A stretch of 48,143 bases of DNA from positions 1-48,143 of the IMG/VR virus record IMGVR_UViG_3300028045_000027; one strand, written 5' to 3'. Below, in pieces: positions 1 to 32,662 of this stretch. How positions within the stretch are numbered: the first letter of the stretch is position 1; each line of letters opens with the position of its first letter. A model generated the notes under the pieces. The model saw nothing but the letters and a program-made list of their open reading frames with translations. It ran no database searches and was not told the origin of the DNA. Source of the DNA: a virus. Position numbers and translations under genes: made by a program.

Positions 1-2699
1 ATAATACTACCGCGGAGGGTGATAAGGTGGAGACATCGGCGGGGGGTGGTGATACAAGTATTACTTGGGGGTCTATTTTTAATAAACCAGTATGGGATGA
101 TAAAAATAAAGGTTATTCGGTGTATTTTAAGCACGCTGAATTTACAAAAGGAGCCATAAAGGAACAAGGACAAGGAAAAGAACTTGAAATCGATAAACAT
201 GTTGGTATGTTAAAAATGGGTATAAAAGATTTTAGGTATAATTTTTATCATACATACGAAGAGGCAGATAATTTAAAAAACGATTCTGGGATTATTTGGG
301 ACTTGGGCTCAAGTAGAACCATAATAACTAATGATAAATCTGCGGTAAAAAAGACTGGTTATAACATGGGTAATTCAACAGCTAGAATGACTAGTGATTT
401 TATTTCAGCCCAAGCACAAATTGGTATGGGTGCTGCTGACGCTTTTGTACAAACACCTTTATGGACAACTAATTACCCACCATATAAATGTCCCATGCAC
501 GCCACATATACGTGGATAACTAACAATGAAATTGTGCTTATGGAAAGCACATCATCGAAACCATTAACAGTTAAAAACCCGCCAAGGGGAACTGGTGACC
601 CTAAAAATGATGACACATTAACAAATGGGTTCAGAAATTTTGCTACATGGTGGGGTGCAAATTCATACTATAAAACCCCACAAGATGAAAGTGGGAAAAA
701 ATATTACTTACCTTTAGCTTATTTAGCGGTTATGAGTTTTGGTTACGAGCCAAACTCATATAACAATGAATTGGCAGCAAAAAATAAAACGGGTCATCAC
801 ATACCTTTTGATGGGAATGTTTTTACAGCACAAGGAGCTTTTAGTAATTTCACAAACCAACACATCGTAGTAGAACCACCTAAATCTTGGTTACTTTTAT
901 TGGGTGCTATTTTATGGAGAGCTAAAGAAGGTTTTCTTCTTGACACAGACTACGATAGTAACTTGTTAACAAAAACACACCAATATAAAGGGTGGAACCA
1001 CGCCGAACAATCAAGAAATTTATTTGATTCCCCTACAGCAGTATCTAATGACCTAGGAGACCCCGTATGGTTTTTCCACACCTCAACTTCTAAACCACTA
1101 CAAAGATATGGTACCATACCAACAATTCAAGGTGATAACGATAATAATGATGTTTATATGTCATATGTTAGAAGGTATTTAGGGTTTGATGACTCTGGGG
1201 TAGATAGATGGACTGATTCTGGTGGGTCTGGAATTTTTAGAATTTCTGAGGTTTACGACCAATTTCAAGGAAACGTGTTAGATACTTACACTTTTTTTGT
1301 TAGTCAAGAAACTGAAGGGGGTGCCAATCTACCAAATAAAGGGGGTAGGACTATTGGGTCATGTCTAGGTGCCAGTTATTCTACTTTGGGATATCCAGGA
1401 CTACTTTGTTATGAAATAAAAAGCCCAGTTTTTCTTAATAGAGGGTGGACAAAATCACAAGCTTGGAACCTCAGTCTTCTCCAACCAGTGGATATAGATA
1501 AAAACAGATTTAATAACCCTTTATCCGCCGATAGCTTTAGAACTGGTCTTAACATAGATAAGGGATTATTTGACCAATGTAGACAAGACCAAATGCCGTT
1601 TATAATACAACAAGAACCTGACGATAAATTTAATAATATGAACTACCCACACACATTGGTTATTACAGATTTATCGGAAACCAGAGAACCATGGAAACCA
1701 GACGGACTACATGTAACTGTGGTTTTAGATGCAGAAAAAAAATATGGATACGAAAGTAGTTCCCCTAACAGGGTACCGAATAGATATATAAATTTAAAAG
1801 AAAAGGTAAAAGAATTAATGTTTTTACCAACAGACTTTAAAATACAACTAATCGACTATTTTGAAACTTGGGCAATAGACGAAGCTGTCGGTGACGAAAC
1901 AAAAGATAGGTGGTGTGGTATATTAGACCCATTAAATTTTGACCCTAAAGATGGTCTAATTTTAGGTAAAGACGGGGTTTCATGGACAGATTGGAAAAAA
2001 ATGGATTTTAATAAAACACAATTTCAATACGGTCTTGACGGTTTTATCCAAAAGTCTTGGACCACAGCTATTTCAGCTGGGAAGGTAAGTACCGATTCAG
2101 TATTAGCTGGTGGCGGTGAAGGTGGTGGTTATTTTAATCATAACCAGATGTCTAGTAATCTTTGGTATTTAGCTTACGCCGGTGACGATAATTTTGGAAG
2201 GACATATACATATGCCGCAACTAAACCTACGAGCACTAGTACCAGTTCAAGTGGAGCTTGGACATCCTCCAATGGTGTTAGTAAACACGGTAACTGTTTT
2301 AAATCAACCGATTTAGTAGAAATGTTTAATGGTGAAATGAAAGTGATTAAAAATGTAGAAGTTGGTGATGGGGTTAAATCTATAAGAAACAACAAAGTTG
2401 TTAAGGGAATTGTTACTAAAAAATTAGTTCACCCAATTAATAACGTGGTAGAAGTTATTAAGATTAATGGAATAACTGCTGAACCTAATCACCCTACCTA
2501 TTTTAAAGGTAAATGGGTTCCTATTAAAGAATTAGGTTCTATTACAACTGAATTTATTGATAATTGGTATAACTTAGAAATTGATGGAAACACTAATAAT
2601 AGTGAACCTAACTACATTATTGGTAATTTAATTGTATCTGGGGTGGGTGATAATATAAAATTAAATAAATTATACAATAGACAAGGTATTTTTAAATAA
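1..2699 (+). CDS. Large virion/tail protein with C-terminal Hint domain (5' partial)
   Basis: The reading frame is open to the left edge (codons from base 3 read NTTAEGDKVET), so the GTG at 27 is an internal valine codon and the true start lies outside the window. About 898 residues are visible. The first ~750 are not recognised: they are rich in Asn, Gly, Trp and Tyr with few charged clusters, as in phage structural proteins. A Ser/Thr linker (nt ~2220-2290) precedes a C-terminal Hint domain that begins at the cysteine coded at 2295-2297. The gene lies 8 nt before two hub-like genes, which suggests a tail or baseplate role. No signal peptide or membrane segment is seen. The virion assignment is inferred from composition and neighbourhood; the Hint call rests on motifs. 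Confidence 0.75.
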   Translation, partial: NTTAEGDKVETSAGGGDTSITWGSIFNKPVWDDKNKGYSVYFKHAEFTKGAIKEQGQGKELEIDKHVGMLKMGIKDFRYNFYHTYEEADNLKNDSGIIWDLGSSRTIITNDKSAVKKTGYNMGNSTARMTSDFISAQAQIGMGAADAFVQTPLWTTNYPPYKCPMHATYTWITNNEIVLMESTSSKPLTVKNPPRGTGDPKNDDTLTNGFRNFATWWGANSYYKTPQDESGKKYYLPLAYLAVMSFGYEPNSYNNELAAKNKTGHHIPFDGNVFTAQGAFSNFTNQHIVVEPPKSWLLLLGAILWRAKEGFLLDTDYDSNLLTKTHQYKGWNHAEQSRNLFDSPTAVSNDLGDPVWFFHTSTSKPLQRYGTIPTIQGDNDNNDVYMSYVRRYLGFDDSGVDRWTDSGGSGIFRISEVYDQFQGNVLDTYTFFVSQETEGGANLPNKGGRTIGSCLGASYSTLGYPGLLCYEIKSPVFLNRGWTKSQAWNLSLLQPVDIDKNRFNNPLSADSFRTGLNIDKGLFDQCRQDQMPFIIQQEPDDKFNNMNYPHTLVITDLSETREPWKPDGLHVTVVLDAEKKYGYESSSPNRVPNRYINLKEKVKELMFLPTDFKIQLIDYFETWAIDEAVGDETKDRWCGILDPLNFDPKDGLILGKDGVSWTDWKKMDFNKTQFQYGLDGFIQKSWTTAISAGKVSTDSVLAGGGEGGGYFNHNQMSSNLWYLAYAGDDNFGRTYTYAATKPTSTSTSSSGAWTSSNGVSKHGNCFKSTDLVEMFNGEMKVIKNVEVGDGVKSIRNNKVVKGIVTKKLVHPINNVVEVIKINGITAEPNHPTYFKGKWVPIKELGSITTEFIDNWYNLEIDGNTNNSEPNYIIGNLIVSGVGDNIKLNKLYNRQGIFK
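2295..2657 (+). other. Hint (intein/hedgehog-type autoprocessing) domain
   Basis: The domain has the order of Hint motifs. Block A starts with Cys-Phe followed by Leu-Val, a Gly turn and a V-x-V-G-D-x-V segment (CFKSTDLVEM then NVEVGDGV). Block B is AEPNHPTYFKGKWVPIKEL, with the conserved His and the Trp-x-x-x-x-x-Leu end. The C-terminal strand pair is WYNLEIDG followed by NYIIGNLIVSG. Inteins end in His-Asn followed by Cys/Ser/Thr. Here the equivalent position reads VSG and no homing-endonuclease insert is present. The layout therefore fits a bacterial-intein-like or hedgehog-type Hint that could cleave at the cysteine but should not splice. Activity is not shown. Confidence 0.72.
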
Positions 2700-3350
2700 C
2701 AAATAATATGGCAGATAGAATATTAGCTTTAAGGAGAGAATTTGAACCAGCGGATGGTAATGTTGAAGGTAAATTTGGTAACCCTAGGGGACTTAATTTA
2801 GGTTTATACAAATCTTTATTTAAAGATACCGCTAAACATTCCGTAATATCTTCCTCACCGAAAGTTTTTTCAGCAATACATAAAAATGACTTTACTGATA
2901 ATTTTTATATTTCAGAAGATGAATTGGAGGCATACGCTCAAGGGTTATTAGATATTCTAACAAACAAAAATATTGATGCAGTATTAGAACAAGAAGCTAA
3001 TGAAGCTCAAATTGATTTAGATGATATTGCTTTAGATGATAAAGACATTAAGTTATCACTTTATCGCTCATTCAAGTCCATTTATGATAAATGGATATCT
3101 AATAGTGGTAAAAGTACACAAAAAACACCCACAAAGGGGTATTTTTTCAATAATTATGGGCAAGATGATGATAGAACTTTATTTGACCATTTTAGTTTCG
3201 TTAACAGAGGTGCTTCGGATATAGGTGGCCAGGCAATAATAGACCCTAATATGTTAAGTGAATTGGTAAGCACCAGCAATGGTAAAGGACCTACAGAATC
3301 TTTATATCAGGTAATAACAAATCTTTTAAGTAAAAATAATTTTGATTTTT
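2697..3350 (+). repeat. Direct repeat copy 1: 5' part of the amidase hub gene
   Basis: This stretch, from the upstream stop TAA and leader CAAATAAT through about codon 214, recurs at 5113-5766 with a constant offset of 2416 bases. Several runs of about 100 bases are identical or nearly so, for example around 2952-3050 and 3092-3190. Other parts differ mainly at third positions. Similarity then falls sharply and returns at lower level further downstream. Confidence 0.9.
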
Positions 3351-4999
3351 TCCCTTTACCAACCTACGTTAAATATTCGTTATCAGGTGAAGAAGATTTA
3401 TTAGATATGTTTAGAGCTATCCCCGATAAAATAAGTAAGGTGGCACCTAACCCTTCTTTTTTGTGTGTTTATATTGGTGGTAACTCCAGAGTTTTAGATA
3501 TCCCTAGGTCTAGTTGTGATAATGAAATAGCTTTTGATTATGGTAATGATGGGTTTGACATCAATGACCCAACACAGTTCCCACAAGATGTTAGTGATGC
3601 TGACGGATATGGATTAACAGCGTTTAAAGTTAGATACGGACAAGAAGCCCAAAACCACTTTAAAAAAATAGAACTAGACCAAACAGAGTTCAAAGAAACA
3701 CAAGAATCATTATTAGTTATTAACGCTTTAGCTAACCCAAAGCAAGGTAATTCACCTTCACAAGCTGGTAAAGGTAATAATATATATGATATGTATTTAA
3801 CTAGGGGGTACACATGTACTGTCACAGCTTTTGGAAACCTACAAATACAACCTTTAATGTACTTTCAGTTAGAAAATGTACCAATGTTTAGGGGAAGTTA
3901 TTTAATAACTAATGTTAAACACGCAATAACACCACACAATGTTGAAACCGTTTTTAAAGGCACAAGACAACCCTTTGTCCAAGCACCACTTGTGGTAGAC
4001 CCAGTTAGTTTATTAGATTTAGCTTTAGCTGAAGAATCTATTGAAGGACAAAAACTAGGTAGCTTAGGTGCTAACACTAATAGGTCCGTTAGTAATATTA
4101 CATCATCAGCATACTCTAGTGGTGGACCAGAAACAATAAAATCTTACGTATTGAGTGAGAAAACAGTTGAAGGTATTACTGTTAAAGAAGGGCCAAAATA
4201 TTTATCAGCCGGACCACTTAATACAAAAAATGTAACTACAGTTGTGTTACACTGGACAGCAATGTTTAAATTACACGTAAGCACAGACACATCTGTTGGT
4301 TACCAATTTACTATTGATATTGATGGTGGGTTGTTTGAAACAAACGCTTTAAAAAACAAATCATCTCACGCTGGCTGTCCAGATACAAAAGAAGGCCCAT
4401 GTCATAGTATGAATTCCAAGTCTATCGGTATTTCATATGTGGGTGGTGTAAAATTCCATCAAAAGTTAGGTGTACCTGGTATTGTTGAAGGTGTACATAA
4501 TTTCCCGAGAAATAAACAAGATAATGAAAAACACGGATACGCATTTACGGAAGATGAATGGAAAAAAAGTGAGGTCATATTACCATACAAGTCACAGTCA
4601 AATGGGGACGCTTCAACACTAAAAGTTAACCCTAAAGCACAATGGGACTCAATCGTTAACGCTATTTTATTAGCTAAATCAGCACACCCAACAATAACAA
4701 ATATTACATCACACCATTGGACATCCGCTGATAAACAAGATGTTAGGGATGAGTTCCCATGGGCAAGATTATTAAATGAACTTAAAGATAGGGGTTTTAA
4801 AGAAGTTAGATTAGTGTCAGATTGGCCTAGTCAAAATAGTTATCGTACAGGTCAAACCGTATATAATGAGGAACTTAATCTACCTGAAAATTTATTTGGG
4901 CCAACAGCAGAAGAACAACAAGAAAACTCAAGTTCTATAGGTGAGAATTTAGGTTCTCAAATAGGGTTATTTTCAACAAAACCTACAGAACCAGTTTAA
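2708..4999 (+). CDS. Baseplate-hub-like protein with N-acetylmuramoyl-L-alanine amidase domain
   Basis: Two-part protein of 763 residues. Residues ~1-455 form a hub-like region shared with the downstream gene. Near its end the segment PLMYFQLENVPMFRGSYLI, followed by TNVKHAI, resembles the C-terminal part of gpD/gp27-type hub proteins. Residues ~495-735 are a zinc amidase (Amidase_2/PGRP/T7-lysozyme fold). His515 (VVLHWTA), His670 (SHHWT) and Asp678 (DKQD, with the AmpD-like K-x-D spacing) are the likely zinc ligands. The enzyme would cut the amide bond between MurNAc and the stem peptide as the tail crosses the wall. The ATG follows the upstream stop by 8 nt with leader CAAATAAT, conserved at the paralog. 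The amidase is well supported; the hub assignment is inference. Confidence 0.82.
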   Translation: MADRILALRREFEPADGNVEGKFGNPRGLNLGLYKSLFKDTAKHSVISSSPKVFSAIHKNDFTDNFYISEDELEAYAQGLLDILTNKNIDAVLEQEANEAQIDLDDIALDDKDIKLSLYRSFKSIYDKWISNSGKSTQKTPTKGYFFNNYGQDDDRTLFDHFSFVNRGASDIGGQAIIDPNMLSELVSTSNGKGPTESLYQVITNLLSKNNFDFFPLPTYVKYSLSGEEDLLDMFRAIPDKISKVAPNPSFLCVYIGGNSRVLDIPRSSCDNEIAFDYGNDGFDINDPTQFPQDVSDADGYGLTAFKVRYGQEAQNHFKKIELDQTEFKETQESLLVINALANPKQGNSPSQAGKGNNIYDMYLTRGYTCTVTAFGNLQIQPLMYFQLENVPMFRGSYLITNVKHAITPHNVETVFKGTRQPFVQAPLVVDPVSLLDLALAEESIEGQKLGSLGANTNRSVSNITSSAYSSGGPETIKSYVLSEKTVEGITVKEGPKYLSAGPLNTKNVTTVVLHWTAMFKLHVSTDTSVGYQFTIDIDGGLFETNALKNKSSHAGCPDTKEGPCHSMNSKSIGISYVGGVKFHQKLGVPGIVEGVHNFPRNKQDNEKHGYAFTEDEWKKSEVILPYKSQSNGDASTLKVNPKAQWDSIVNAILLAKSAHPTITNITSHHWTSADKQDVRDEFPWARLLNELKDRGFKEVRLVSDWPSQNSYRTGQTVYNEELNLPENLFGPTAEEQQENSSSIGENLGSQIGLFSTKPTEPV

Positions 5000-5112: not shown

Positions 5113-5766
5113 TAACAAATAATATGGGAGATAGAATATTAGCTTTAAGGAGAGAATTTGACCCAGCGGATGGTAATGCTGAAGGTGCTTTTGGTAGCCC
5201 TAGGGAACTTAACGAAGGTTTATACAAATCTTTATTTAAAGATACCGCTAAACATTCTATTGTTTCATCTAGTCCGAAAGTTTTTTCAGCAATACATAAA
5301 AATGACTTTACTGATAATTTTTATATTTCAGAAGATGAACTTGAATCTTATTCACAAGGGTTATTAGATATTCTAACAAACAAAAATATTGATGCAGTAT
5401 TAGAACAAGAAGCTAATGAAGCTCAAATTGATTTAGATGATATCGCTTTAGATGATAAAGACATTAAACTTTCTTTATATAGGTCATTCAAATCAATTTA
5501 CGATAAATGGATATCTAATAGTGGTAAAAGTACACAAAAAACACCCACAAAGGGGTATTTTTTCAATAATTATGGGCAAGATGATGATAGAACTTTATTT
5601 GACCATTTTAAGTTTATAAATAGGGCCAACTCTGATATAGGTGGCCAGGCAATAATAGACCCTAATATGTTAAGTGAACTAATAAGCACCAGCAATGGTA
5701 AAGGACCTACAGAATCTTTATATCAGGTAATAACAAATATTTTAAGTAAAAATAATTTTGATTTTT
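5113..5766 (+). repeat. Direct repeat copy 2: 5' part of the muramidase hub gene
   Basis: Second copy of the 654-base direct repeat, offset by 2416 bases from copy 1. It includes the TAACAAATAAT leader (here partly doubled as TAACAAATAACAAATAAT) and the first ~214 codons. The long identical blocks indicate a fairly recent duplication or continuing gene conversion. Confidence 0.9.
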
Positions 5767-7589
5767 GGCCAACACCAGCAAATATACCATTAAACACTAA
5801 TAGTCTACCTAGTGAAGAGTTGAAAAAAATGTTTACAGCTTTAGATAGGTTCGAAAAAGCACAATCTGGACCAATATTTAATTGTGTTTTTATGGGTGGT
5901 AGTTCTAGACAACTAAAAGATTTAAACAATAAGGAGGGTGGGTGTGAACTTATTAATTCAGAATATGGTGATGATGGGTTTGACATAACAGAACCAACAG
6001 AATGGCCAGAAGAAATTAGTGGAAATTTAGATTCTGGTTTAGTAGTGTTTAAAGTTAGATACGGACAAGAAGCTCAAAATCATTTTCAGTCATTAGAAGT
6101 AGACCAAACAAACTTTAAAGAAACACAAGAATCATTATTAGTTATAGATAAATTAGCTAACCCAAATCAAGGTAACTCACCTTCACAAGCTGGTAAAGGT
6201 AATAATATATATGACCTTAATTTAACTAGAGCTTATAATTGTACTGTAAAAGGCTTAGGTAATATGTCTATACAACCGTTAATGTATTTTAAATTAGAAA
6301 ATGTACCTATGTTTAGGGGTACATATTTAATTAATAATGTTAAACACACAATAACAGCTCATAAAGTAGAGACAGAATTTACTGGATTAAGACAACCAAA
6401 AGTAACTATACCAGTAGTTGAAGACCCAGTTAGTTTATTAGATTTAGCTTTATCTGAAGAAGCTATTGAAGGGCAAAAACTAGGTAGCTTAGGTACTTTT
6501 GGTGTGGTAGGAAGTGAATTTACTTCAGCAAATGTATCACAATTCACCCAACAAGACGAAGTTGAAAAAGGTTGTGAGATATCAAAAAGACTACAAGTTG
6601 ATTTAGGTTTAACCCTAGCCCAATCCGCCGGTGTTGTAGGTAATTTAATGGCAGAATCATCATTAATTCCAGACAGAATACAAGGTAGTGGTACTAGAAA
6701 AGGTCTAATAACAGAATCTGGTGGGTGGAATGGTACAGATTTTTCGAAAGGTGGTGTACAAGGATACGGTTGGGCTCAATGGACATATTATACATTAAAA
6801 AATAGTTTTATAACATATGCGAATTCAGTTGGAGTTGATTTAACAACAACACCAGCAAACGATGAAGTTAGTTATGGTTATCTAGTAGAATGGATTAGTA
6901 AAAATAGTTCTAAACTTAATAAATTAAAAACTAAAACATCAGCTTATGAAGCTTCGAAATATTTTGCACAAGAATATGAAAGGTGTGCTAGATGTAATGA
7001 ACAAGTTTCTTGGACAAAAAGAGGTGGTTATGCACAACAAGTATTTGATTATTGTAACAGTGCAACATCAAGCCCAAGTAGTAAAACCAGTAATAATGTT
7101 TTTTTACTTGGTGGGTTAGATGATAGAAGTGGTGATTTGGACATAAGTCAACAACAAGAATTATTACAAGAAGGACTTTTTTCTACAGTCTCAAATGGCC
7201 CTAACCAAAGCGGACAATACAATATATCATCTTTTAGATACAACGACCCAAAAAGTTTAATTAAAAAAATAGAACAAAGCACAAAACCAATGAATGTAGT
7301 ATTATTTAGTGCGGGGTGTAGATATTCTAATGATGTTTCTTCCGCAATGAAAATTAAAGGTTTTAACTTATCTAACTTATTTATTGTTGAACCATACGCA
7401 AAAAGTAGTGACACTACTAAATCAGTAAAGGAGGCCGTAAAACTAGGTGTACCTAACAAAAACGTAATAGTTGGGAGTTCTAGTAGTACAGGAAAAGGTG
7501 TTGTTGAAAATACAACAACTACCCCAACATGTTCCCCTAAGCATTGGTGTGCTTTAACTGAAGTTGGTAAAATAATAAAACAAAAATGA
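5124..7589 (+). CDS. Baseplate-hub-like protein with phage tail lysozyme (muramidase) domain
   Basis: Paralog of the upstream hub (821 residues). Residues ~1-455 align with it and carry the same PLMYFKLENVPMFRGTYLI segment. Residues ~490-655 then match the phage tail lysozyme type: AGVVGNLMAESSLIP, with Glu511 as likely catalytic acid, and GYGWAQWT. This should cleave the glycan backbone, complementing the amidase next door. A further domain (residues ~723-815) starts with a hydrophobic strand (MNVVLFSAG) and looks alpha/beta, but I do not recognise it. The order hub region, wall hydrolase, extra domain resembles T4 gp27-gp5 fused into one chain. The muramidase call is good; the hub role is inferred. 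Confidence 0.8.
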   Translation: MGDRILALRREFDPADGNAEGAFGSPRELNEGLYKSLFKDTAKHSIVSSSPKVFSAIHKNDFTDNFYISEDELESYSQGLLDILTNKNIDAVLEQEANEAQIDLDDIALDDKDIKLSLYRSFKSIYDKWISNSGKSTQKTPTKGYFFNNYGQDDDRTLFDHFKFINRANSDIGGQAIIDPNMLSELISTSNGKGPTESLYQVITNILSKNNFDFWPTPANIPLNTNSLPSEELKKMFTALDRFEKAQSGPIFNCVFMGGSSRQLKDLNNKEGGCELINSEYGDDGFDITEPTEWPEEISGNLDSGLVVFKVRYGQEAQNHFQSLEVDQTNFKETQESLLVIDKLANPNQGNSPSQAGKGNNIYDLNLTRAYNCTVKGLGNMSIQPLMYFKLENVPMFRGTYLINNVKHTITAHKVETEFTGLRQPKVTIPVVEDPVSLLDLALSEEAIEGQKLGSLGTFGVVGSEFTSANVSQFTQQDEVEKGCEISKRLQVDLGLTLAQSAGVVGNLMAESSLIPDRIQGSGTRKGLITESGGWNGTDFSKGGVQGYGWAQWTYYTLKNSFITYANSVGVDLTTTPANDEVSYGYLVEWISKNSSKLNKLKTKTSAYEASKYFAQEYERCARCNEQVSWTKRGGYAQQVFDYCNSATSSPSSKTSNNVFLLGGLDDRSGDLDISQQQELLQEGLFSTVSNGPNQSGQYNISSFRYNDPKSLIKKIEQSTKPMNVVLFSAGCRYSNDVSSAMKIKGFNLSNLFIVEPYAKSSDTTKSVKEAVKLGVPNKNVIVGSSSSTGKGVVENTTTTPTCSPKHWCALTEVGKIIKQK

Positions 7590-25970: not shown

Positions 25971-28900
25971 ATGGCTAGAAAAGTAGTACCAGGTTCGATA
26001 ACGGAACCATATAAAATAGGGAAAGGTGATTTTTCACCTAACTTAGTAGGTTTACAATTTACACAAGGGACAACTTTATTTACGTTGGGTAATTTTGATA
26101 TCACCACTAACTCTAGTACGGGTATTAGTAAAGTTTATAATACAGGTTCTTTTTCTGATTCATATAGTTTAGAAACGCTAAGTTTAACATCACAAGAATC
26201 AGAGATACTCTCAAACGAGTCAGTAAAAACCATATTAAATCTAGACCCTACTAATATAGAAAGGTATGTTTATTTTGGTAGTTTTTATGAATTTATTTCT
26301 GAAAAAATAAAAAATATTTTATTAAAATGGAAAGGTTCTTTATATGTAAACAACTTACAACCTACAGACCCAACACAAACAGAAAAAAACACAATTTTAA
26401 ATTATAGTTACGATAGTGTTAAAGATAAATCATACTTTAAAATACCAGCTTCAGTTATAATAAATAACTACGCTTTAGTTTATGATTTGAAATATAGTGA
26501 TAATAGTGAGTACACAAGTACATTATTTAATCAAAATGAAAATTATGGGGAAATATATAACCTTAATTTTCATTTTGGGGACTACCAAATTAGTAACACT
26601 TTTGGTGATTTTTTTGTTACTAACTTTACAGGTAGTACCGAAACTGACCCATACATTTATGTTGAAGTTAATAAAAATGCTTGGCCACCATTAGAATCTA
26701 TTGGTTTTGGTAGTTACAATTACCACCTAAGACCTAAAGAAGAAATTTTAAATAAATATTTTTTTAATTTGTTAAACGAGTTTGAAAAACAAATGTTAAA
26801 TGAATTAACAACACCTCGTTATAGCTTTAAAATCCAATCACCAAAAAAGACAGATAGTGGAACAATAATTCTAGCTCAAAAAACATTAACATGGCCAACT
26901 TCAGATGGTTATAATTTAGATAGTGGGGGAGGTAACTTCCAAATATATGTATCAAGTTGGTTAAATGAAGCTAACAGTTTTGACGAACTAAAGACAGATT
27001 TAATATCTAGAAGATTTGTAACAGGGTCAATTATTGATTTTGATACTGATGGTGGTGGAAATGAAGTTTATGGTAGAAAAGTTAATAAATTATTAAAAAT
27101 TTACGGTAGGGAATTTGATGAAATTAAAAAATACATAGATGGTATATCTTTCGCTAGGGTAGTTACCTATAATAAAAAAGATAACATACCAGACCAGCTA
27201 GTTAAAATTTTAGCTAGTGAATTAGGTTTAGATGTATTACTAAGTTTTTTTGAAAATAATCTTTTTAAAAACGATTTACCAAATGATACTACACAAGAAG
27301 GTTATGGTAATTTACTAAATATACCTTTTTCAGGATATTCAAGAAACTTATCACCAAAAGAAATGGATATTGAATTATGGAGACGGTTGGTTATAAATGC
27401 TTGGTGGTTATTTAAATCTAAAGGTCATAGGAAAGTTTTAGAATTTTTCTTAAATTTATTTAAAATACAAAAATGTGTTATAAGTTTAGATGAGTACATT
27501 TACATAGCCAAAAATGCCCCATTAGATGTAGATGAAACATTTGACGTTATAGCAAAATATTTAGGTGTAGAACCTTTAGGGTCAGGTGTTGAGGTTACCG
27601 ATGGTGAACCAGTTACCAACGTATATGGAGCTGAATTAAATGCTAGCGATTACCCAATCGATGTATATGGTTTCCCTAAAGTAGCTAATAATTCACCAGA
27701 ATACTATTACCAATTAAATGGTTTTTGGTATAATGGTGGTAACTTGTCAGAAGAAGGAAATAACCCACACACAGGACCTTATGATTATGGTAAAGCTTAT
27801 TTAAGTTCCCTTGAATGTCTTATAGATTCTTTTGAAGGTGTAACAACAGGTACGACCACCTTTAATACATTAGATAATTTATTTATAGATTATGAAAATG
27901 GTACCATTGAAAATGGTTTAAACAATTTTGGTGAAGATTATGCTGAAATAATGAACACCACAAATAGGGGGTTAAATAATGTTAATATAGTTTCAGCAGG
28001 GGCTGATAATCAAATTTCTTTTGGTGAAAGCCAACAATCCTTTAGGATTGTTTTTAACCTTAATTGTGTAATACCATGTCCTAGTGAATTTATTAACTAT
28101 GGTAATGGTGTTATTTTTATTGGTTTCGATGACACTAAAAGTCCACTTTCTAGTAGTGCGGAACCAAAGTTATCCCAATTCCCACAACTTTATTTGTCAA
28201 AACCACAAGTATTGATACAATCTTTAGAAATAACAGAAATTTGTTGTAAAGAAATAGGTGGATATTATTTACCAAACCTAGACAATGATATAAATATTGC
28301 TGAGGATATCTTTACTATAGAAGAGTTATTTAAAGAAAATAGTACAACAAAACCTTTACCAGAACCAAAAACACTTTGTTATTGGTGTCCACCAACACAA
28401 ATACTGTGTGATGAAGATTATTATGGTGCGATACTAGCTAAACAAAATTCTAATAACGAACCAACTAATAAACAAAGAGTTCAACCCCAAGGACAAGGTG
28501 ATGATGTAAAAGAGGTTATTGGTTGTACAGATGGTTCAGCTATAAATTATAACGCTTTCGCTAATAAAATGTGTGAAGGGTATACAGGCACTTATTTAAA
28601 AAGTAATTGTAATTCTGGTGCACCAGCTAACGCTATATGTTCTGGGTGTTGTTATAAAACTATACCCAATAATGAGGAATCAATTGATGGAGAATTAATA
28701 TCTGAAGTTTTTATCAATAATGACCCTTGTGGTGGGTTAATCACACAAGAAAACCAATCACCCAACCAGTTTTTAATAAACGGAAAAACGGTTAAAGATA
28801 TCGGATGTTGTACCGAACTCTTAATGGGTGCACCTGTTGAATTCACATCTTTTGATTCAAATGGTGATGGAAAGTTAGACAGTTCAGGATGTGTACCCAA

Positions 28901-30167
28901 AGTAAGTTCTATAGATTGTTCACAAAAAGAGATTTATATTAATGGTGGTGTTGTGTTTGGAATTAAAGATTCAAGATGTTGTACTGACGATTTTGTTGGT
29001 CAACCTGTAGTGTGGGACGGCATCCAGTGTAAAGTAAAAGAAGATAGTTTATGTGTTATTTTAACAAACGATAATCAAAATATAACTAATGCTGAATGTT
29101 GTAAATTAAAAATGGGTTATTTAAGTAAAGACTATTACGGTAATACAGTGTGTATTAAAGAAAGCGTTGATGGTGGAGGAAGTGGTACTGGTGGTAATGG
29201 TGGTACTGGTTTTACTAGGTGTTCCCAAACTGAATTAGCTAGTTTTACAACTATAACTATTTTAGATAATGACGGTAATTATGAATTATTACAAACACAA
29301 GACGGTAAAGCGGTTAGTAAACTATGTTGTGCAGCATACGATAATTTGAACAATAACGAAACTTGGACTTTCAACAGTAACCTTGGTTGTACTAGAAACA
29401 TAGAGAGCCAAAACATGGAATACCAAACGGGTAGATACCAATTAGTTGAAAGTTTCCTTGGAAGGTTCATAGCTGGAATAAACAACACTAACCAAACCGG
29501 ACAATTTGTGGAAGAAGGTATTTTTTCTTTAGAAACATTTTTTGGTAGCCCAACTTTAGAAAATGCTGGTGATATAAGAGTTCTATTAAAAATAAGAAAG
29601 TTAACAATAAACGGTGTGGAGTACATACAAGGTAATCCACCATCAGCGGTAATTGGACAACAATTAGCTTCACCTGATATAAAAAATAGTGTATTATTTT
29701 TACAACAAGTGTTTAACCAGTACGGTTTAACTGATTATAAAGCCCAATTACCTGGAACACCAAAAAATATAAGCGGAAATTCACCATCTAATACTGGGGG
29801 AGTAGATAACAAATATGGTTTTTATATAATTAGCCCTAAAGAAGATAATTACTATATAGAATACTATTTCCATTACCTAACTTTACCTGAAAGTAAAGGT
29901 GCTTTTACTTTTGAAATACGTAAACCAAGTGTTGTTACAAACTTAAACGTTAATCCGGAAGGGTCATTCAGTAGTAACATAAATTTCTTTTTCGATTCCG
30001 TAGCCAACAATAGCTTTGTACCCAACCCCACCTTCGGTTATGTCGCTAATAAAATAACATCAGTAACAAATGAAACATGTTTTACGATAAATCAAACCAT
30101 ACCTACGTATGGTGTAGAACCAGAACAGTGTTACCCATATACATTAGGGCAAATAACTTACGATTAG
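25971..30167 (+). CDS. Tail-protein-I/gp7-like wedge protein fused to cysteine-rich surface modules (1398 aa)
   Basis: Largest gene in the window. Residues ~370-500 resemble tail protein I (gpI, equivalent to T4 gp7): a helical run around VNKLLKIYGREFDEIKKYI, then LWRRLVINAWWLFKSKGHRK and VLEFFLNLF. After residue ~800 the protein changes character. A GCTD module (residues ~846-905) is followed by four domains each marked by a Cys-Cys pair (IGCCTE, SRCCTD, AECCKL, KLCCAA). Within these are a calcium-type loop (DSNGDGKLD, from residue 962) and a Gly-rich linker. The final ~250 residues are beta-rich. The first part would join the baseplate; the Cys-rich part is probably exposed. The gpI similarity is moderate, the modules are clear. 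Confidence 0.8.
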   Translation: MARKVVPGSITEPYKIGKGDFSPNLVGLQFTQGTTLFTLGNFDITTNSSTGISKVYNTGSFSDSYSLETLSLTSQESEILSNESVKTILNLDPTNIERYVYFGSFYEFISEKIKNILLKWKGSLYVNNLQPTDPTQTEKNTILNYSYDSVKDKSYFKIPASVIINNYALVYDLKYSDNSEYTSTLFNQNENYGEIYNLNFHFGDYQISNTFGDFFVTNFTGSTETDPYIYVEVNKNAWPPLESIGFGSYNYHLRPKEEILNKYFFNLLNEFEKQMLNELTTPRYSFKIQSPKKTDSGTIILAQKTLTWPTSDGYNLDSGGGNFQIYVSSWLNEANSFDELKTDLISRRFVTGSIIDFDTDGGGNEVYGRKVNKLLKIYGREFDEIKKYIDGISFARVVTYNKKDNIPDQLVKILASELGLDVLLSFFENNLFKNDLPNDTTQEGYGNLLNIPFSGYSRNLSPKEMDIELWRRLVINAWWLFKSKGHRKVLEFFLNLFKIQKCVISLDEYIYIAKNAPLDVDETFDVIAKYLGVEPLGSGVEVTDGEPVTNVYGAELNASDYPIDVYGFPKVANNSPEYYYQLNGFWYNGGNLSEEGNNPHTGPYDYGKAYLSSLECLIDSFEGVTTGTTTFNTLDNLFIDYENGTIENGLNNFGEDYAEIMNTTNRGLNNVNIVSAGADNQISFGESQQSFRIVFNLNCVIPCPSEFINYGNGVIFIGFDDTKSPLSSSAEPKLSQFPQLYLSKPQVLIQSLEITEICCKEIGGYYLPNLDNDINIAEDIFTIEELFKENSTTKPLPEPKTLCYWCPPTQILCDEDYYGAILAKQNSNNEPTNKQRVQPQGQGDDVKEVIGCTDGSAINYNAFANKMCEGYTGTYLKSNCNSGAPANAICSGCCYKTIPNNEESIDGELISEVFINNDPCGGLITQENQSPNQFLINGKTVKDIGCCTELLMGAPVEFTSFDSNGDGKLDSSGCVPKVSSIDCSQKEIYINGGVVFGIKDSRCCTDDFVGQPVVWDGIQCKVKEDSLCVILTNDNQNITNAECCKLKMGYLSKDYYGNTVCIKESVDGGGSGTGGNGGTGFTRCSQTELASFTTITILDNDGNYELLQTQDGKAVSKLCCAAYDNLNNNETWTFNSNLGCTRNIESQNMEYQTGRYQLVESFLGRFIAGINNTNQTGQFVEEGIFSLETFFGSPTLENAGDIRVLLKIRKLTINGVEYIQGNPPSAVIGQQLASPDIKNSVLFLQQVFNQYGLTDYKAQLPGTPKNISGNSPSNTGGVDNKYGFYIISPKEDNYYIEYYFHYLTLPESKGAFTFEIRKPSVVTNLNVNPEGSFSSNINFFFDSVANNSFVPNPTFGYVANKITSVTNETCFTINQTIPTYGVEPEQCYPYTLGQITYD
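28504..28682 (+). repeat. GCTD-module direct repeat, copy 1
   Basis: About 179 bases recur at 30213-30391 (constant offset 1709) with few differences, encoding the module that starts VIGCTDGSAINYN and ends SGCCYK. The central ~90 bases (28571-28660) are almost identical between the copies. The module type is common in secreted Bacteroidota proteins. Confidence 0.88.
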
Positions 30168-30181
30168 ATATTTAGAAATAT

Positions 30182-32662
30182 ATGGCACAAGCAAATAATA
30201 TAGTAGGGGATGATGAAAAAGATGTAATTGGTTGTACAGATAGTACAGCTATAAATTATAATGTTTTTGCCACAAAAACATGTGAAGGGTATACAGGCAC
30301 TTATTTAAAAAGTAATTGTAATTCTGGTGCACCACCTAACGCTATATGTTCTGGATGTTGTTATAAAATTATATCTACTAATGAGGAATCAGGTGACCCA
30401 ATTAAAGGTGATGGTGGTACTGAATCTAATGACGGTATTCCAGACTTAGGTTCAGGTGTGTCAATCATAGATTTTGGTGACATATTTAATTGCCCTAGAA
30501 CAGAACAGCTCACATGGAGTAATACCGACCCAATCGTAATTACATTTGAAGGTCAAAATTTAAGTGATGAATGTTGTACTGAAAGTGTGGTAGGAGCACC
30601 TGTAACCTACACTCAGATTAGTAGTAGAAAATACGCGTGTACATTAAATAAACAATCTAACCCTTGTCCACCGATTGAAGCAATACAAATATCAGCGGAA
30701 GACCAAACAACTATACTTGGGATTAAAACAAAAGAATGTTGTGAATTTTATAATAGTGAAAATTTCCTTACTGTTTGGGATGGTAGATTTTGTTTATACC
30801 AAAAAGAAACTAATGATTGCCCTTTCGATGATTTTATTGTAGAACAAAGTGCTAGTAACCCCGACACACCATTAAACACATTACAAGTTTTTGGTTCAGG
30901 AACGTCATCTAAAGAACTTATACCTTTATCTCACTATCCAAACTGTTGTACAACAGAAAACGTTGGGGTTGAAGTTATATATGATACAGAATTAAAGTTA
31001 TGTTTATACCAAGTAGTAACACCACCGCCAGCACCACAACCTATTATAGTAATAAATGAAGAACCTATAATAAATGATGATTGTGATGATTTATTGATTT
31101 CAGCAAAAATTTATTTCGCTAGACCACCTAAAGAGTGTTTTTCTGATATAGTAGCTTCATTACTACCTGACAACCCTTCTTTTACAGTAGAACAATTAGG
31201 TATTTTTAACTCACAAGACGATGAGTTTAATACTTGGGTAGATTTAGGGTTAAGAGTCGTAACAACTACTAGTGACAGTTTTAACGTAAATTTAGTGTTT
31301 AATGGATTATTAATTTGTTGTGACTACGATATAAGGATTGACAATGTTAGGGTAGATTGTTTTAAGGAAGAAGATAGAGCTTTTTACCAAAAAAACGATT
31401 GTCCTGGGTTTGATTTAAAAAGAGTAATAGATAATAAAAAGTCTTGGGTATATAATCCAGGAACAGATGAAATTGGGCTATCAACTGAGGATATAATAGA
31501 TAGAAACCAAGGTGATGTAGGTTTATTAGAAAAGTTTGGGTTTGTTAATAGAACTTTCGCTCCAAGTAGTGACGCCGATTTACCTTGGAGGTATACTGAC
31601 TATTATGAACAATCAAACATTAAAGAACCACACAGTAAAGCTGTTATAAACAGTAAAGAAATGGAACTCACATTCAATATGTGTTCTGAATGTTGTATTG
31701 AAGATAGCCCTTGTCCGGCTGGATATACTTTAAGTGCTAACACAAAAAGTTGTTACAAGACAACTTGTCCGGATGGGTACAAACTTAGTGGTACGAGTAT
31801 GTGTTATAGTGCGTCTACAGAAGTTCCTGTATTTATTACTAGTGGTTTTACATCACAAGGAGCTGTACCACCGCAAGATTTAATAAATACTAACATAATT
31901 TCAAATCCAGTACCTTTTAATAGTTTTTTAACGGCAGGTATATCGACTGGTGATACGGTTAACATACCATTATCTGGCATATCTTATACCATATCAAGTA
32001 TTATAGATTATAGAAGTTTAGATTTGAATTCACCACCACTGATTAGCCCAACATTCGATTTTTCTGGGGTATACTATGAAATATATACTACACCACCTGA
32101 AACCCTATACACTAACCCTACAATATTAACTGAAGAATATGGCTCTTATTGTCTTAAAAAAGTTAGTTTATTACAACTAGAAGATTATAAAAAAACTTTC
32201 CAAAGTTTTTGGGTTAGGATGATTGAACAGTTTGTTCCGGCAACCACAATATTTGTTTCAGGTGAAAAATGGTGTAATAATAACGATTTAATATGTACAG
32301 AATTTGGAGAATGTGATTATGATTATGAATATGTTGATTCTGAGATAACTGTTATTGAGTATGGTACAGATTTTGCACCTGTCGCAACTGGTACAACAAA
32401 TACGAATAATGGTGGTGATGTTCCAGATGAAAATAGTAGTGATACTACTATTAATAATGAGTCGGGTGGGGAACCAAATAATTCAGATGATGGACCAATA
32501 ATGGAAGACGGTACTACAGTAATAACAACACCTTCAGAACCTACAGGACTAACTGAAACTAATGAAAAAGATTTTACAGGCCCAACTGATACACAAAAAA
32601 AAGGGCTAAATAACTATATGTCTATAACAACGAAAGCAAAATCAGAAACAATATTTAAATAA
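30182..32662 (+). CDS. Cysteine-rich modular tail protein (826 aa)
   Basis: It starts with a GCTD module (residues ~12-70) nearly identical to that of the preceding gene, then three Cys-Cys domains (DECCTE, KECCEF, PNCCTT) and a Pro-rich linker (PPPAPQP). A beta region with ICCDYD follows, then SECCIED and two tandem C-x-x-GY-x-LS...CY units near residues 511-541. The C-terminal ~100 residues are a low-complexity Asn/Gly/Thr/Asp tail. No enzyme motif is seen. Shared modules and adjacency suggest it packs with, or duplicates part of, the gp7-like protein. The most likely role is an exposed fibre or baseplate decoration, stabilised by disulfides after release. Confidence 0.78.
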   Translation: MAQANNIVGDDEKDVIGCTDSTAINYNVFATKTCEGYTGTYLKSNCNSGAPPNAICSGCCYKIISTNEESGDPIKGDGGTESNDGIPDLGSGVSIIDFGDIFNCPRTEQLTWSNTDPIVITFEGQNLSDECCTESVVGAPVTYTQISSRKYACTLNKQSNPCPPIEAIQISAEDQTTILGIKTKECCEFYNSENFLTVWDGRFCLYQKETNDCPFDDFIVEQSASNPDTPLNTLQVFGSGTSSKELIPLSHYPNCCTTENVGVEVIYDTELKLCLYQVVTPPPAPQPIIVINEEPIINDDCDDLLISAKIYFARPPKECFSDIVASLLPDNPSFTVEQLGIFNSQDDEFNTWVDLGLRVVTTTSDSFNVNLVFNGLLICCDYDIRIDNVRVDCFKEEDRAFYQKNDCPGFDLKRVIDNKKSWVYNPGTDEIGLSTEDIIDRNQGDVGLLEKFGFVNRTFAPSSDADLPWRYTDYYEQSNIKEPHSKAVINSKEMELTFNMCSECCIEDSPCPAGYTLSANTKSCYKTTCPDGYKLSGTSMCYSASTEVPVFITSGFTSQGAVPPQDLINTNIISNPVPFNSFLTAGISTGDTVNIPLSGISYTISSIIDYRSLDLNSPPLISPTFDFSGVYYEIYTTPPETLYTNPTILTEEYGSYCLKKVSLLQLEDYKKTFQSFWVRMIEQFVPATTIFVSGEKWCNNNDLICTEFGECDYDYEYVDSEITVIEYGTDFAPVATGTTNTNNGGDVPDENSSDTTINNESGGEPNNSDDGPIMEDGTTVITTPSEPTGLTETNEKDFTGPTDTQKKGLNNYMSITTKAKSETIFK
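30213..30391 (+). repeat. GCTD-module direct repeat, copy 2
   Basis: Second copy of the 179-base repeat, coding residues ~11-70 of the 826-residue protein (VIGCTDSTAINYN to SGCCYK). High nucleotide identity between adjacent genes points to recent duplication or gene conversion and is a likely recombination site. Confidence 0.88.

Follow-up and report, generated by a model that had tools for sequence, protein, structure and literature searches.

Organization of the locus

The window analyzed here is a fragment of 48,143 bases from an IMG/VR virus record. Its first open reading frame encodes a baseplate protein that ends in a Hint domain, and two putative hub genes lie downstream. The features referred to below are as follows:

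3–2699, plus strand: first ORF, open at the 5' end because the record begins inside the gene, 898 aa
3–2294, plus strand: tail half, the baseplate protein ahead of the Hint domain, N-terminus missing (open frame; segments 34–36% identical in L002 and L006; alignment A1)
2214–2294, plus strand: Ser/Thr-rich linker preceding the Hint domain, AATKPTSTSTSSSGAWTSSNGVSKHGN (read from sequence; at this position orthologues likewise carry low-complexity linkers)
2295–2660, plus strand: Hint domain, Vint-type
2295–2297, plus strand: Cys765, the Hint Cys1 and predicted nucleophile; scissile bond Asn764-Cys765
2469–2504, plus strand: block B, GITAEPNHPTYF, with His830 at 2490–2492 and Glu827, in place of Thr, at 2481–2483
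2562–2654, plus strand: blocks F/G, NWYNLEIDG...NYIIGNLIVSGVGDN, with Ser-Gly at the His-Asn position of inteins
2655–2699, plus strand: 14 residues past the Hint domain and the stop codon, without a C-extein domain (from the ORF; low model confidence)
2708–4999, plus strand: putative hub protein 1 with a C-terminal Amidase_2 domain, starting 9 bases past the stop codon of the Hint; fused to the tail half in relatives
5124–7589, plus strand: putative hub protein 2, a paralogue of hub 1 with a tail lysozyme domain

The gene neighbourhood is that of a contractile-tail phage, with gp25- and gp6-like baseplate wedge genes and genes for UvsX, DnaB, primase, phage exonucleases and ribonucleotide reductase. 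There was no Pfam or PHROG match to the first 764 residues of the ORF (PHROGs gave nothing useful on the tail half), no VWA match anywhere in its 898 residues, and no relative of the tail half alone by tblastn or single-protein scan; relatives of this region were reached solely via the hub and via alignments. PDB profile searches on the N-domain and the hub yielded no identification, and their coiled-coil/GCN4 matches look like chance.

The proteins encoded at 2708–4999 and 5124–7589 are 76% identical across their first ~458 residues and divergent beyond. Members of this family weakly match the PHROG categories 'tail protein' and 'baseplate hub'. The hub yielded an AF2 model of low quality (pLDDT 57), and the Foldseek list of this model, used only as a consistent hint since no match fell below E 1e-3, consists mostly of the P1, Mu gp44, pyocin, VgrG and T4 gp27 hubs. 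On the basis of these weak PHROG matches and this hub-dominated list, we identify both proteins as hubs with moderate confidence. Two or three copies of the hub gene lie side by side in the window (2708–4999 and 5124–7589), L002 (5969–12514) and L018 (9998–15405); the N-terminal parts of adjacent copies are near-identical and their C-terminal enzymes differ (amidase, lysozyme, M15-peptidase-like end or unassigned).

Identity and fold of the Hint domain

An earlier note on this DNA had placed a Hint domain at 2295–2657, at the C-terminus of a large tail protein, and had suggested a search with Pfam Hint and intein profiles. That search, structure prediction and Foldseek bear out the proposal, with coordinates correct within about one residue: the window ORF ends in a genuine Hint domain. 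Pfam Vint (PF14623) matched 2295–2660 with 36.8 bits (gathering cut-off 27; E 4e-9) and scored 31.4 bits over the whole ORF; Pfam Hog and PT-HINT also matched, both below cut-off. A phage-Hint profile built without the window matched the domain at 32–34 bits. The AF2 model, made from 17 sequences (the window domain and 16 viral homologues), has a mean pLDDT of 80.9 and a pTM of 0.75 and is poor only in its last 16 residues. Its best PDB match in Foldseek was the Tetrahymena Vint domain 8r2c (E 9e-7, TM 0.77), followed by BIL2 of the ciliate BUBL1 locus, DnaB inteins and a Clostridium BIL domain and, lower, by the Hedgehog Hint. The fold and blocks A and B that define the Hint superfamily are therefore present; blocks F/G are divergent. 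Codon usage in the Hint-coding stretch is native-like. No relative of the window Hint was found by searching directly in INPHARED (tblastn), IMG/VR and GTDB genomes, and the window record holds no second Hint match.

Catalytic residues

The catalytic Cys and block-B His read in the earlier note are both present. Across 17 aligned phage domains, Cys1 and the block-B His are invariant (17/17) and His-Asn is variable; Cys765 is the single Cys of the window domain. The block-B TxxH motif reads EPNH in the window, Glu827 thus replacing the Thr characteristic of the Hint superfamily. In Hedgehog, H329A is inactive and T326A has greatly reduced activity (PMC9163320); because of the latter effect, it is chiefly Glu827 that casts doubt on full activity of the window domain. 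Val or Ala takes the place of this Thr in four further viral domains in which Cys1, His and His-Asn are intact.

The terminal His-Asn and the residue for a second splicing step are missing, as the note had also recognized. In contrast to the ...VLVHN of inteins and A-type BILs, the window domain ends in ...LIVSGVGDN, with 14 more residues before the stop codon. It thus lacks what marks an intein, namely a C-terminal His-Asn, a +1 nucleophile and a C-extein. Judged by its residues, the domain appears equipped for the first Hint step except for the Thr, and equipment for later steps is absent. His810, 45 residues past Cys1, has the spacing of the Hog Asp (D46); we set this candidate aside, as the spacing runs through a variable loop.

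Hint domains of orthologues

Orthologues of the tail protein were found via a hub search. The L002 tail protein (1725 aa; identical in five contigs) ends in another Hint, ...GNHNFIINNVLVHNVT-stop, whose HN-VT end has the His-Asn of A-type BILs. The L018 tail protein ends in ...NFIAGNVLVYN-stop, a Hint with YN for HN that is also off consensus at the block A GD. The L006 tail protein stops before any Hint, though its genes are split. For the L002 and L018 Hints, the matching models are AXH, Intein_splicing and Hint, with only a weak match to Vint; the best sequence match of the L002 Hint is the ciliate BUBL BIL2 domain. Between L002 and L018, the Hint is 57% identical and the remainder of the protein 59%.

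In a Hint tree, the window domain, which has a very long branch, joined the L002 and L018 domains in 0% of 200 bootstrap trees. This comparison favours replacement over a common origin of the window Hint and the L002/L018 Hint, without proving it. Since orthologues bear different Hints at the same end, a C-terminal Hint is a repeated feature of this baseplate protein, and probably one that is exchangeable between orthologues. The tail tree does not resolve a single Hint gain with loss in L006; the hub tree branches L006 off first, with 93/89 support for the rest. The L018 record also contains a second, two-piece Hint/intein-like match (G003, minus strand, 29965–30192 and 28894–29016), perhaps an intein interrupted by an endonuclease.

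Fused relatives and the tail-hub gene split

Using alignment A6, which covers the conserved N-terminal region of the tail protein, we found 247 viral relatives and kept 80. In the retained loci, the tail N-domain is joined to the hub domain on one polypeptide in 60 ORFs (43 distinct lengths, from 1684 to >3300 residues), and a Hint occurs in none of them (0/60). A short conserved tail-half segment (...FLP...FE.W...DPLNF) is recognizable in 20 of the 60, with the hub usually 28–100 residues further on in the same ORF; in the window clade, this segment is followed by the linker, the Hint, a stop codon and the hub gene. Both the hub tree (100/99) and the tail tree (100/100) recover the split clade as monophyletic. 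Hub genes are multiplied only where split from the tail half, being single in fused relatives, and all hub starts of the split clade are MS, MA or MG.

When whole records were searched, those of the window, L002 and L018 each gave a Hint match, and none was detected in L006 or in 11/11 fused relatives. Split genes are accompanied by a Hint in three of four lineages, compared to 0/60 fused ORFs, though these lineages form one clade and represent effectively one or two events. For this reason, and since a C-terminal Hint at this place is possible only after the split, we do not take the association as proof of function. L152 was considered as a second gene split and rejected: a single in-frame stop lies inside a fused tail-hub ORF (TAA, L152:5329–5333), which may reflect erroneous sequencing, recoding or a genuine interruption.

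Loss of catalytic residues in tandem arrays of viral Hints

With the L002/L018 Hint as query, we recovered 67 further viral loci; in the products of many of them, three or four Hint domains stand in tandem behind an N-domain. Single C-terminal Hints occur in L037, a collagen-containing, tail-fibre-like protein, and in L082, a protein of 1407 aa whose gene lies downstream of a gp6-like one. The full set of Cys1, Thr, His and His-Asn is present in 66 of 129 distinct viral Hint domains, many of which are close relatives, such that coarse clustering leaves a handful per class. His-Asn is lost in 22 of the 129 (21 SD, 1 YN), all of which keep Cys1, Thr and His (22/22); those inspected are the last domain in their protein. 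Cys1 is lost in ~35 domains that come first in an array, all of them with His-Asn; the block-B His is also clearly lost in 27 of these and ambiguous in eight, where the stretch is variable. No domain lacks both residue sets (0/129).

Because the loss tracks reaction steps, which is not expected of decaying domains, viral Hints of this kind are likely active. This pattern is our best indirect evidence that viral Hint domains act as cutters, the last array member presumably at its N-end only. By position and end, the window sequence places its domain in the last-in-array class; the last array domain often ends in VLVSD, resembling the LIVSG of the window. Arrays of a ~300-aa N-domain and three or four tandem Hints are found at L047:2581–5265, L073:186–2933, L052:5618–7888 and ~50 similar loci (L035–L097), a clamp loader and 2OG-Fe(II) oxygenase being encoded close to the L052 array gene.

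Proposed self-cleavage and alternative explanations

We propose that the window Hint does not splice but removes itself via an N-S acyl shift at Asn764|Cys765, with the thioester hydrolysed or passed to a nucleophile; this is the most likely of the explanations considered, though we regard it as evenly poised between right and wrong. The baseplate protein would fold, after which Cys765 would attack the Asn764 peptide bond with the assistance of His830. The resulting thioester would be hydrolysed or captured by a thiol or amine (thiolysis, aminolysis), releasing the Hint and leaving a tail half with a trimmed C-terminus beside the separately made hub proteins. The scheme rules out splicing or a C-terminal cut because there is neither a His-Asn nor a C-extein. 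We infer the reaction, its timing and its end product from the observed fold, residues, position, orthologues, fused relatives and residue-loss pattern.

Several observations support such a self-cut: the invariance of Cys1 and the block-B His despite variation at His-Asn, a Hint that is as conserved between L002 and L018 as the remainder of the protein, the good-confidence Hint fold together with native-like codon usage, the loss of residues by reaction step among the 129 viral domains, and the precedent of B-type BILs, which cleave without His-Asn (PMC4031507). It is weakened by the Thr to Glu change, the divergent blocks F/G, the very long branch and the Hint-less L006, and also because the residue-loss pattern comes from other Hint lineages, many of them mutually close. 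The claim of the earlier note that the domain cleaves or ligates rather than splices thus gains from the residues and from the step-wise loss in other viral Hints, but Glu827 urges caution.

On account of the same substitution, weak or lost activity has to be taken seriously as a rival. The Hint could be a catalytically weak or dead relic, or merely a structural C-terminal domain retained after splicing was lost, which we consider doubtful. The Glu in block B, the lost His-Asn and the long branch are in line with decay, as are the L018 deviations (block A GD, YN for HN) and the absence of the domain from L006; however, Cys1 and the block-B His persist, the predicted fold is intact, and none of the 129 viral domains has lost both reaction steps.

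It is unlikely that the thioester is instead handed to a partner, thereby ligating the tail half to a virion component (e.g., the N-terminal amine of a hub), lipid or wall material. In 60 ORFs of relatives, tail half and hub form a single covalent chain, and the Hint lies at the very point at which this link is absent, but L006 has split genes without a Hint, and the Hint is at the split partly by definition, since a C-terminal Hint needs a free C-terminus. A-type BILs ligate via a free amine on the thioester (PMC4031507), and hubs are multiplied only in the split clade; Met removal from their MS, MA or MG starts is expected to expose a small residue, although such starts are common and the acceptor site and partner are only hypothetical. 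Quite unlikely is the specific form of this idea, in which the Hint thioester of the tail half would react during virion assembly with the N-terminal amine of separately encoded, interchangeable hub-lysins and so restore the covalent tail-hub link, which in relatives is encoded by a single gene. An ordinary or split intein whose C-part or C-extein lies elsewhere, and which was mistaken for a C-terminal domain, would fit the fold and the abundance of inteins in phages but is very improbable, given that block F and the expected strands are present, the record (a fragment only) has no second Hint match, the hub gene begins 9 bases past the stop codon and orthologues also end at the Hint.

Comparison with known Hint systems

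Vint (PF14623, 8r2c) provides the best Pfam model and best solved fold for the window domain and shares its C-terminal position; it keeps motifs A and B and not intein block G (PMC2362128). However, Vint is defined in eukaryotic VWA proteins, whereas the window domain is in a phage baseplate protein without a VWA/Vwaint match and has ExxH for TxxH. B-type BILs likewise lack the intein-like C-terminal motif and are described to perform N-terminal cleavage uncoupled from splicing (PMC4031507, PMC7765530). In contrast to the window domain, they are found in variable bacterial proteins, and the likeness drawn here is the absent block G. Hedgehog Hog resembles the proposed scheme, being a C-terminal Hint that performs the first step only, with the thioester taken by an outside nucleophile; the window domain differs from it in having neither a sterol-recognition region (14 residues follow) nor a SCYA-type end. 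A-type BILs and the ciliate BUBL BIL2 (6y75, 6tmm) provide the second-best solved fold, but their His-Asn end is absent in the window and present in the L002 orthologue. Other viral Hint proteins, including the L035–L097 arrays, also carry the Hint at or near the C-terminus, though in other host proteins that have no link to a tail-hub junction.

Hint domains as such are already known, as are N-terminal cleavage without splicing and phage proteins with a Hint annotation. Such cleavage is known for Hog and B-type BILs, so the suggestion of an undescribed mechanism is not borne out. The block-B Thr to Glu change, the hub-gene junction, the swapped or missing Hints of orthologues and the Hint-less fused relatives were all absent from that first reading. 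The literature searched, whose silence does not prove absence, contained no description of a Hint in a tail or baseplate protein and none of an exchangeable Hint at a tail-hub junction or of step-wise loss in tandem viral arrays; the phage Hints that we found there are discussed as inteins of replication, repair and packaging enzymes. The viral Hints described here form the ends of virion proteins, lack splicing residues in a pattern specific to the reaction step and, in one clade, lie at a tail-hub gene split. If real, the cut would be a self-timed maturation step in a contractile tail. The orthologue set (HN-, YN- and SG-ended, without a Hint, and fused) makes the self-cut directly testable, and N-cleaving Hints without a C-terminal step could serve for protein thioester production.

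The AXH Pfam model, an ataxin-1/HBP1 module, matches phage Hints with up to 141.6 bits (cut-off 33), including L002:5490–5966, L018:9524–9994, L073:186–2933 and others. Ataxin-1 AXH structures are also among the best PDB sequence matches of the phage Hint, and AXH may have descended from a Hint domain.
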